The notes under the pieces are model-generated. The model was not told the DNA's origin. It saw only the letters and a program-made list of their open reading frames with translations, and searched no databases. A stretch of DNA of 36,619 nucleotides, taken from assembly GCA_947467625.1 (NCBI GenBank), contig CANIJN010000019.1, forward strand, positions 1-36,619, in the 5' to 3' direction. Position 1 is the stretch's first letter. Each line of letters begins with the position of its first letter. The position numbers and the translations under genes are program-made. Of the stretch, positions 9,684-36,619 are shown piece by piece. Source of the stretch: Opitutia bacterium. GTDB taxonomy: Bacteria; Verrucomicrobiota; Verrucomicrobiia; Opitutales; Opitutaceae.

Positions 9684-10397
9684 TCAGGTGATCACAAGCT
9701 TCACCGCCGCCACCAGGAGCACGAGCGCCAACGCGGGGCGCAACTGCGCAGGCCGCGCCACTCGACTGCCCCAGCGCGAACCCAGCAGGCCCCCGACGGT
9801 CGCCGCGATCACCAGCCAAGGCCACGACGCCGGCAATTGACCCAGCGATCCCACATGGCCGAGCAGACCCGCCGCTGAATTGACCAAAATAAAGGGCGCC
9901 GATACCGCCGCCGCCGTCTTCGGCTCTCCCCAACGAAAAAACAAAATCAACGGCGTCAAAAAAATCCCTCCGCCCACCCCAATTAATCCTGAAATAAATC
10001 CGATCGACGCACCCACAACGACGATCACCCACCCCGACGGCCGCCGCACTTCTGCCCCCAACGCCGCTGGAATCAAGAGCCGCCCCGCCGCAAACAAAAG
10101 CGCCGCCGCGACGAGCCAACGAAACACCTCCGCACTCAACTGCCAGCCACCACCCAGATACGCGCAGGGTGCCGCCACCACCGCAAACGGCCAAAACAAC
10201 CGCCACGCGAAATGTCCGGCGCGGACAAAAATCACCGTCCCGATCAGCGAGACCACCACATTTAGCACGAGCGCCGTCGGCTTCATCGCCGTCGGCTCGA
10301 AGCCAGCGAGCGCCATCACCGCCAGGTAGCCGGACGCCCCACCATGCCCCACCGTCGCGTAGAGCGCAGCCACCAAAAAGAAAACGCCCGCGATCAC
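9684..10397 (-). CDS. TauE/SafE-family anion permease
   Basis: 237-aa integral membrane protein starting at GTG 10397; an in-frame stop just upstream (near 10434) leaves no better start. The two halves of the family are visible: LYATVGHGGASGYLAVMAL in the first and GFISGLIGVGGGIFLTPLIL in the second, with about 7-8 hydrophobic helices in total. Members export sulfite, sulfoacetate or other small anions. The substrate is not known here. It follows arsJ with 116 bp between them, so read-through from the arsenic operon is possible, but the protein is not a known Ars transporter. Confidence 0.85.
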   Translation of the reverse strand: MIAGVFFLVAALYATVGHGGASGYLAVMALAGFEPTAMKPTALVLNVVVSLIGTVIFVRAGHFAWRLFWPFAVVAAPCAYLGGGWQLSAEVFRWLVAAALLFAAGRLLIPAALGAEVRRPSGWVIVVVGASIGFISGLIGVGGGIFLTPLILFFRWGEPKTAAAVSAPFILVNSAAGLLGHVGSLGQLPASWPWLVIAATVGGLLGSRWGSRVARPAQLRPALALVLLVAAVKLVIT

Positions 10398-35639: not shown

Positions 35640-35716
35640 CGGGGTGTAGCTTAGTCTGGTAGAGCGCCTGGTTTGGGACCAGGAGGTCGTAGGTTCGAAT
35701 CCTATCGCCCCGACCA
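35640..35716 (+). tRNA. tRNA-Pro (anticodon UGG)
   Basis: 77 nt with an encoded CCA end. Acceptor stem CGGGGTG/CGCCCCG (one T-G pair), D-arm GCTTAGTCTGGTAGAGC, anticodon stem CCTGG/CCAGG around loop TTTGGGA (anticodon TGG), and T-arm GTAGG-TTCGAAT-CCTAT. The discriminator base is A. An integrated element appears to begin immediately downstream. Confidence 0.98.
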
Positions 35717-35728
35717 TTTTCTGAAAGT

Positions 35729-35784
35729 ATCCGAACTTAGTTCGGATCGTTTAACGACCGGGATGATATCCCGGGGGTTAAACG
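35729..35784. repeat. Paired inverted repeats downstream of tRNA-Pro
   Basis: First palindrome: atccgaact-t-agttcggat (35729-35747), perfect 9-bp arms. Directly adjoining is cgtttaacgaccggga (35748-35763), loop tgata, tcccgggggttaaacg (35769-35784), with 14 of 16 bases pairing. They contain no gene and lie 12 bp past the tRNA end; they may be recombinase or regulator binding sites. Confidence 0.75.
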
Positions 35785-35799
35785 TGTTACGGAACCCGC

Positions 35800-35903
35800 G
35801 CGTTAAACGCTTCGGGAGTTTAGTTCGGATTTTCCCATTAGAAATCCACGCCGTTGGCGGATTTTTCAGCGTTTCTCCCGGGAAGTGTTTAACGCTCCGG
35901 GAT
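35800..35903. repeat. Further copies of the gttaaacg/gtttaacg motif
   Basis: gcgttaaacgc (35800-35810, palindromic), then ttagttcggat (35820-35830, repeating the arm at 35737-35747), and gtttaacgctccgggat (35887-35903), a near copy of gtttaacgaccgggat at 35749-35764 with one extra base. The motif thus recurs in both orientations over about 150 bp. Confidence 0.7.
35843..35867 (+). terminator. Possible terminator between tRNA-Pro and recombinase
   Basis: atccacgcc-gtt-ggcggat with one unpaired A in the stem, followed by tttttc. It could end the tRNA transcript or protect the recombinase gene from read-through. Confidence 0.5.
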
Positions 35904-35998
35904 TGAAAGCCGCGGGAAATTCTCCAGTCTCTGCGCCGTAAACCATATCTCGGGCAGAGGCCAATTGGATCGCCCATCAACCCTCAACGGAGGTTTCG

Positions 35999-36619
35999 AT
36001 GCAGCCGATCCAACAGTCACCCAAGCATGCCGCGCCCAGTGTTGTCCCCGTCGCGATCTACACGCGCGTTTCCACTCTGCACCAAGTCGGCGGACGTTTT
36101 GACTCCTGCGAGAGTCAGGCGGCGATCTGCCGCGACTACATCAGAAAACGCGCCCACGAGGGCTGGACGGAATTTTCCTGCCACACCGACGCGGCCTACT
36201 CTGGCGGTTCGATGAACCGGCCCGGCCTGCAGGCCCTCATGCGCCAGATCGAGGCCGGCGAGGTGAAGGTGGTCTTGATTTTCAAATTCGAGCGGATGCT
36301 GCGCAACACGGACGAATGGGCGCCGTTTCGCTCGTTCCTCGCCCGGCACGGATGCCGCCTCGTCAGCACGACCGAGGACCTTTCGGAGGAGACCCCGTCG
36401 GGTCGGCTGAAAAACAACATGCTCGTGAGCGTAGCGGAATACGAGCGGCTCAACACCGCGGAAAAAGTCAGGGCGAAACTCGCGGAGTTGGCCAAGCGCG
36501 GAATCTGGAACTGCGGTCTCGTGCCTTTCGGCTACGACTACGACGCCGCGGCGAAGTTGCTTTCACCGAACTCGCAGGAAGCAGCCATCGTGAAGCGTAT
36601 CTATGCAGAAGCGGCCCGA
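35999..36619 (+). CDS. Serine recombinase, 5' part (runs off window)
   Basis: 207 codons from ATG 35999 to the window end. Site-specific DNA recombinase of the resolvase/invertase family, large-serine type. A canonical ribosome binding site (ggagg, 6 bp before ATG) sets it apart from the rest of the window. The catalytic domain has AIYTRVST with nucleophile Ser at about residue 25, SQAAICRDYI, DAAYSGGSMNRPGLQALMRQI, FKFERMLRNTDEW (usually KLDRLSR) and EETPSGRLKNNMLVSVAEYE. The beginning of the recombinase domain follows (GIWNCGLVPFGYDYDAAAKLL). The gene probably belongs to an integrated element extending beyond the window. Confidence 0.93.
   Translation, partial: MQPIQQSPKHAAPSVVPVAIYTRVSTLHQVGGRFDSCESQAAICRDYIRKRAHEGWTEFSCHTDAAYSGGSMNRPGLQALMRQIEAGEVKVVLIFKFERMLRNTDEWAPFRSFLARHGCRLVSTTEDLSEETPSGRLKNNMLVSVAEYERLNTAEKVRAKLAELAKRGIWNCGLVPFGYDYDAAAKLLSPNSQEAAIVKRIYAEAAR

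Follow-up and report, generated by a model that had tools for sequence, protein, structure and literature searches.

Phased repeats between tRNA-Pro and a large serine recombinase gene in an Opitutaceae genome, a probable left end of an element inserted at the tRNA 3' end

The tRNA-Pro locus and its repeat block

The DNA analysed (the window) was the entire contig C19 (36,619 bases), one of the 362 contigs of a draft genome. A complete tRNA-Pro(TGG) gene, the presumed target gene, was identified by ARAGORN on the forward strand (35640..35716). It was followed on the same strand by the 5' part of a large serine recombinase gene (35999..36619). The latter was open over 207 codons from the ATG at 35999 to 36619, where it was cut by the contig end, and matched PF00239 with an E-value of 2.4e-27. 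Among open reading frames of at least 80 aa, only one lay mostly inside the block between both genes, a 92-aa frame with a TTG start on the minus strand. The stretch 35717..35841 (forward strand) was also present in copies without a recombinase and is referred to as the left end of the element. The proposed att core, GCCCCGACCATTT, was located at 35707..35719 on the forward strand.

The block was rich in direct and inverted repeats. The perfect palindrome with 9-bp arms described in the earlier note was found at 35729..35747 as ATCCGAACT-T-AGTTCGGAT; the left arm is also complementary to 35822-35830, and an outer arm, TTAGTTCGGAT, was located at 35820..35830 (forward strand). The second palindrome was present with slightly different dimensions: the imperfect inverted repeat at 35748..35784 has 17-bp arms (35748-35764 and 35768-35784) about GAT, of which 15/17 positions (88%) are complementary, instead of 16-bp arms with 14 matches. 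Of the at least four copies of the octamer GTTTAACG that had been reported, three were exact, at 35749 (+), 35801 (-) and 35887 (+), and the fourth, near 35777, carries a mismatch. CCGGGAT comes directly behind the octamer at 35749 and at 35887, in agreement with the earlier note. In extended form, these repeats were designated site a, ATCGTTTAACG (35746..35756, plus strand, +30 from the tRNA end), site b, AGCGTTTAACG in minus-strand reading (35801..35811, +85, inverted relative to site a), and site c, AGTGTTTAACG (35884..35894, plus strand, +168). A weaker additional copy, GTTAAACGTG, was located on the minus strand at 35777..35786. Ahead of the recombinase start lay a leader motif, GAGGCCAATTGGATCGCCC (35957..35975, plus strand), which was matched with up to four substitutions in 22 of 40 blocks and absent from the other 18.

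The repeat cluster is real and exceeds chance. The octamer occurred five times in the whole window against 0.77 expected, a count reached by none of 100 shuffles. Folding of the first 124 bp of the block as single-stranded DNA gave z = -5.25, and none of 200 shuffles was equally low. The same 124 bp held seven inverted 8-mer pairs, as many as were found in only 2 of 1149 other 124-bp segments of the contig and in 5 of 2000 shuffles.

Occurrence of the left block across genomes

Within the same genome, the block recurred beside a tRNA-Pro(GGG) gene together with a decayed recombinase gene. In other genomes, related blocks adjoined tRNA-Pro genes of the TGG or GGG type. A 27-base core pattern with at most three mismatches was found at nine places in 7 of 252 genomes of the family and nowhere in the reversed control. 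All places examined lay beside tRNA-Pro, beside members of the recombinase family or within units of a left and a right end (L/R units). tRNA-Pro genes not followed by the block were common: 21 of 23 further tRNA-Pro(TGG) loci (L018-L040) had other sequence after the tRNA. Of the remaining two, one was cut off at the tRNA and L032 carried the block of another recombinase lineage. Two block-less loci, L019 and L023, belonged to the same genus, with a different, tyrosine-recombinase-like element in L019. The block-less loci suggest that the block most likely arrived with an element.

In eight copies (L045/L066, L046, L047, L048/L067, L049, L050, L051 and L064), the left block follows tRNA-Pro, or the 3' portion of it, and no recombinase was detectable. 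Taken literally, they are what the earlier note had named as evidence against a link to the recombinase, namely the same repeats downstream of tRNA-Pro in relatives that lack the enzyme. They were not taken as refuting, however, because two of the eight (L051 and L064) are closed by a right end, because decay of the recombinase occurs in other copies and because 21 of the 23 other tRNA-Pro loci are without the block. Among the copies closely similar to the integrase of the window, four were decayed or truncated and others were cut by contig ends or consisted of short fragments. In the four tRNA-Pro copies L044, L062, L063 and L005, the recombinase ends or breaks within the first ~180 codons, each at a different point. 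A relative with 81% identity in genome G138 has a full-length open frame.

A separate element of ~4 kb was observed inside a tRNA-Pro(TGG) gene of G002 (L065:5100-9300, contig C3), flanked by a ~53-bp repeat of the tRNA 3' half. Its frames, named by eye, were tyrosine-recombinase-like and Rep-like.

Right ends, att core and tandem units

When the copies of G007 and G270 were compared, a right end became apparent whose sequence terminates in the 3' end of tRNA-Pro. Matching right ends were detected at 17 places in 12 of the 252 genomes. The tRNA-Pro tail CCCCGACCA was exact in ten of these places, had one mismatch in three and was present in neither form in four. The places in G271 and G110 are one sequence (99.3% over 2392 bp) and were therefore counted once, so that the 17 places represent 15 or fewer independent ones. 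The earlier note had suggested searching the far end for the repeated motif; the family repeat, tested in the right end of its own family, was not family-specific. The right end of the window's own element was not found in its genome in a search at E 1e-8.

The tRNA tail of a right end was followed by chromosome or directly by another left end. G156 had two such direct junctions and G271/G110 one; a weaker case was G001, where the left end was not registered by blastn. The proposed core GCCCCGACCATTT was common to the junctions of tRNA and left end (six compared) and of right and left end (five), and to part of those of right end and chromosome (six), with L289 and L290 being near-identical. 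tRNAs of the GGG type have GCCCGACCA in common at the core. Variants were also observed: CCGACCA is followed by CTTT in L289/L290 and by TCGT in L292, and L293 has CCGACCG.

In G271, the order was tRNA-Pro(TGG), AbiEii/AbiEi, right end, left end, Xre/RES, right end and other sequence, with an eroded left end in the first unit. Contig C65 of G156 held two right/left junctions behind tRNA-Pro(TGG), the last ahead of a 43-codon recombinase fragment. Tandem units of left and right end without a recombinase, as in a CIME accretion array, were represented by L289/L290 (one sequence in two genomes) and L291. Junctions and tandem units of this kind are characteristic of elements accumulating site-specifically at the 3' end of a tRNA gene. 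The array of L291 (G156:C65) also contains a gene for a Y1-type (IS200-like) transposase at 9817-10353. The genomes of L289 (G271:C139) and L290 (G110:C299) are assigned to different genera, and their shared array may reflect either recent transfer or a mis-binned contig.

An element that begins at a tRNA 3' end and ends in its copy was found for relatives of the Pro family, the window holding the left side alone. Tested with tRNA-end patterns, the tRNA-Ser(GCT) element had attR candidates ~68.8 and ~72.6 kb downstream (13/14 bases each) and the tRNA-Tyr element one at ~35.4 kb (11/11 bases). Neither left-block similarity nor tRNA-end patterns revealed an attR for G138, the Ser element of G047 or G196. 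Left-block similarity gave no convincing match for five elements, the strongest being 47 bp at 96 kb for the Tyr element of G047. Synteny was followed through the NtrC gene beside the tRNA-Pro of G002 and did not lead to the far end; the gene was present in all nine genomes of the genus, and ARAGORN found no tRNA at the nine loci. The VanZ flank matched ten times in 13 genomes of the genus of G270 without an empty tRNA-Pro(GGG)-VanZ site. Three relatives had a tRNA-Leu there, and the common sequence started ~70 bp past the right end. For tRNA-Pro(CGG), tRNAs without the block were found, but no right flank in common.

Two left-end arms face each other about a GATATC palindrome in L052 (350-2200, G006:C394), with a recombinase fragment on one side, an Xre/RES-like pair on the other and no tRNA. 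This layout may be an inversion or an attP-like product. The GATATC palindrome had been considered as the crossover point because the sequences of L046, L047, L049, L051 and L052 diverge close to it or beyond it; it was dropped as the main idea, as the L/R junctions lie at the tRNA end, which does not account for the inverted duplication of L052.

Phased repeat sites

In divergent families, a repeat was found near +30, +85 and +166 from the tRNA end, and its sequence varied by family. Repeats of two families were GTTTAACG, as in the window, and GATTAGGAAAC; the Asn family has three unchanged copies of GTGTTAAAATG and the Arg family GATTAGGAAAT/C. In 14 divergent blocks of 260-315 bp, similarity of sites within a block exceeded that between blocks for a-b (p 0.0002) and b-c (p 0.003 with 9-mers, 0.0002 with 11-mers) and was borderline for a-c (p 0.057 and 0.018, respectively). 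Shuffled blocks were as high in 0 of 1000 cases in five of six tests and in 4 of 1000 for a-c with 9-mers. An all-pairs position scan of the same blocks returned the best inverted pairs near (83,165) and (33,86) and the best direct pair near (35,166).

In a wider test of 37 blocks of 240-315 bp, with search ranges of 10-65, 66-130 and 131-215, 20 blocks reached the 99% shuffle level, several of them closely related. In these 20, site a was placed within 4 bp of +30 in 17 cases, site b within 4 bp of +84.5 in 14 and site c within 4 bp of +166.5 in 14; measured from the ATG, the corresponding numbers were 11, 10 and 10. The other 17 blocks remained below the 99% null, and L071, L075 and L103 reached the null level at other positions.

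The sites differed in their retention in the eight copies without a recombinase. Site a was kept with 10 or 11 of 11 bases in all eight, site b in five (degraded in L046, L047 and L050) and site c in three. This pattern fits sites a and, less surely, b as part of the mobile end, and site c as belonging with the gene.

The recombinase family and its tRNA genes

Relatives of the recombinase with E 1e-40 or better were present in 42 of the 252 genomes. Named contigs matched by the recombinase were mostly from metagenome assemblies of Opitutaceae or other Verrucomicrobia, and family members also occur in Geminisphaera colitermitum TAV2. Eighty distinct recombinase genes were fetched, nine of which were left out (less than 340 bp upstream and no tRNA seen), so the following numbers refer to 71 genes of the fetched loci rather than to all family matches. 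A tRNA gene on the same strand within 600 bp upstream was found for 39 of the 71, at a distance of 250-312 bp for 36, with 11 anticodons. The tRNAs upstream of the 39 genes were Ser (23), Pro (10), Arg (3), Glu, Tyr and Asn (one each). tRNA identity clustered on the recombinase tree, with 17 changes against a shuffled mean of 31.9 and 0 of 200 shuffles as low, a statistic to which near-copies contribute.

The remaining 32 recombinases had no upstream tRNA. In five of these (L105, L114, L118, L127 and L239), a tRNA-Gln or tRNA-Asn gene of the opposite strand lies opposite the 3' end of the recombinase gene, facing it, perhaps a second layout with the att site at the other end of the recombinase gene. 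The genome of the window holds two more family recombinases, L042 and L043 (C170 and C267), with no tRNA in the fetched stretch; L042 has a long upstream frame resembling the helicase of other elements. Close family members were also encountered in assemblies labelled Acidobacteria, Magnetospirillum or Dechloromonas (L235, L238, L244 and L261), which may reflect transfer between phyla or mis-binning.

The tRNA-Pro(CGG) region of G196 encodes a TrwC relaxase, a T4CP coupling protein and an N6-methylase/helicase, as in ICEs and IMEs; its right end was not found. A second recombinase was not detected among its five ORFs of at least 200 aa, four of which were scanned.

Domain structure of the recombinase

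The recombinase belongs to the large serine integrases and carries an additional domain, similar to ParB/Noc, at its C-terminus. Pfam assigned Resolvase, Recombinase and zinc-ribbon domains to the full-length relatives L041, P0002 and P0003, and the Resolvase part alone to the fragment in the window. By profile and fold, the solved relatives were the integrases of SPbeta, TP901-1, A118 and Bxb1. Full-length enzymes of the family comprise ~700 aa, with an extra helical domain at residues ~600-690. In profile searches, the best solved relatives of this domain were Spo0J, Noc, ParB and KorB, with E-values from 0.0019 (6sdk) to 0.14, the six best matches all being Spo0J, Noc or ParB. The fold comparison with Noc gave a Z of 10.8 over 86 residues (2.0 A, 27% identity), a value that all-helical models can also reach by a common helix arrangement. 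In Foldseek, Noc, Spo0J and ParB led (E 0.01, probability 1.0) and no match reached E 0.001. Pfam HTH_ParB was matched by 17 of 22 proteins at E <=0.01, with two matches among the full-length proteins falling under the curated cut-off; the G138 protein matched HTH_24 instead. Each test is modest alone, and the assignment to ParB/Noc was made because sequence and fold name the same family. A CTP-binding N-terminal ParB domain was not listed by Pfam at E 0.001 for the three full-length proteins. GTTTAACG or AACGTGAAAG may resemble parS.

In alignments of proteins of 640-800 aa, motif similarity tracked RD and ZD no less closely than it did the ParB-like domain, and it was correlated with middle regions too. 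The ParB-like domain was not singled out as the reader of the motif and added nothing with RD fixed (partial r 0.017, p 0.39).

Proposed function of the block and alternative explanations

The block is probably the element side of attL, belonging to an element whose own large serine integrase inserted it at the tRNA-Pro 3' end. Recombination would occur within or beside a stretch of ~13 bp made up of the final bases of the tRNA gene and those directly behind it; the element would carry this stretch, so that the tRNA stays whole. The integrase would recombine a circular attP, composed of right end, tRNA tail and left end, with the tRNA gene. The repeats are predicted binding sites, most likely of the integrase, which may contact them with its ParB/Noc-like C-terminal domain. 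At the left end, sites a and b would assist in building the recombination complex; a link from this complex to the control of the integrase gene would be provided by site c. The repeats may also bind an excisionase or act as an operator, as the earlier note had suggested. The suggestion of the earlier note that the palindromes are core or accessory sites of the recombinase would then need dividing, since the att core is apparently the tRNA 3' end (35707-35719) and the palindromes lie 13-180 bp inside the element. Copies that carry toxin-antitoxin genes and no recombinase could be mobilised by an integrase made elsewhere. Several findings count against this attL assignment: four of the 17 right ends lack the tRNA tail, even allowing one mismatch; the recombinase gene of the window is cut off, and no right end of the window's element was found in its genome; and the ~13-bp core slightly exceeds the range of 2-12 bp stated for serine integrases in the excerpted text of PMC4111918.

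It is rather unlikely that the repeats are purely an operator array through which the integrase or a small HTH protein controls the recombinase gene, with no role in recombination. Palindromic sites upstream of genes are often operators, and the poor retention of site c, upstream of the gene, in copies that have lost the gene (3/8) would fit such a function, as would the degradation of site b in three of the eight. Site a, by comparison, lies ~250 bp from the start codon and was kept in all eight gene-less copies, and site b in five, which argues against control of the gene as the sole function; the same applies to the 20 scoring blocks, whose sites keep a more constant distance to the tRNA end than to the ATG.

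A duplicated tRNA 3' end typically points to a tyrosine integrase. A division of labour in which a tyrosine integrase inserts the elements into the tRNA and the serine recombinase merely resolves or inverts DNA at the palindromes is nevertheless improbable. The apparently tyrosine-recombinase-borne element in the tRNA-Pro of G002 with its ~53-bp repeat speaks for it, and so does the inverted duplication about the palindrome in L052. It is contradicted by the serine recombinase occupying the same end with the same spacing in 36 of 71 cases and next to 11 anticodons, and by the lack of a tyrosine integrase among the five G196 ORFs of at least 200 aa (four scanned). A 13-nt core at a tRNA 3' end is moreover used by the serine recombinase of phiRSM, according to the excerpted text of PMC3816273. 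Very improbable are ordinary terminator hairpins of the tRNA, or a REP-type repeat family that came to lie behind tRNA-Pro by chance. A strong hairpin does lie close behind the tRNA, but no T run follows it, unrelated sequence was found downstream at 21 of 23 other tRNA-Pro loci, and the block places examined are tied to tRNA-Pro, the recombinase family or L/R units.

An extension of the attL assignment is a bivalent integrase, whose catalytic part would act at the tRNA 3' end and whose ParB/Noc-type domain would bind family-specific arm sites at constant spacing inside the element. We regard this as possible but doubtful. If true, it would provide a core and arm complex like that of lambda Int for a serine recombinase, and modular retargeting among tRNA genes. 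Serine integrases are valued as tools since their sites are thought to be short and self-sufficient, and tRNA genes are regarded mainly as the territory of tyrosine integrases. With members next to tRNA genes of 11 anticodons, an added ParB-type domain and phased repeats, the present family supplies naturally matched integrases and targets and opens questions on the evolution of target choice and on the use of arm sites by serine integrases.

Comparison with known systems

Serine recombinases at tRNA genes exist and are called rare in the excerpted text of PMC3218068. The large serine integrases of SPbeta, Bxb1, A118, TP901-1 and phiC31 have Resolvase, Recombinase and zinc-ribbon domains like the present family, which differs by its ~700 aa, the extra ParB/Noc-like C-terminal domain and the tRNA target. 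Their known att sites are typically <=50 bp, as stated in the part of PMC4111918 available, whereas the phased repeat array here extends to ~+180. According to the excerpts of the respective papers, phiRSM of Ralstonia (tRNA-Ser; PMC3816273) shares a serine recombinase, a tRNA 3' end and a 13-nt core, and the AICEs of Mycobacterium (tRNA-Leu; PMC3218068) share a serine recombinase with a tRNA gene as site. The recombinase of phiRSM is a small serine recombinase, in contrast to the large one here, and both systems, as described there, use one tRNA each, whereas one family is found here at Pro, Ser, Arg, Glu, Tyr and Asn. Among the matches listed from open-licence PMC papers, none concerned a family of serine integrases that occupies many different tRNA genes and combines a ParB-like domain with phased repeats.

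We know of no comparable repeat array in SCC or ECC cassettes. In the excerpted text of PMC6222049, SCC/SCCmec and ECC cassettes (CcrAB, 3' end of rlmH) resemble the present family in the large size of their serine recombinases, in their position at a conserved gene's 3' end, and in leaving remnants and several attR sites. Their target is the protein gene rlmH and the ECC att comprises 50 bp, whereas a tRNA gene is used here, which places the family outside SCC. ICE/IME and CIME accretion arrays, as portrayed in the available part of PMC5704250, likewise form tandem stacks that keep attL and attR without genes for integration or transfer. The legend of Figure 1 in that paper places the sites of serine-recombinase IMEs within genes and those of tyrosine ones at gene ends; here, a serine family is found at tRNA 3' ends, with toxin-antitoxin cargo. 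In their way of life, SCC/ECC cassettes and CIME arrays come closest to the present elements.
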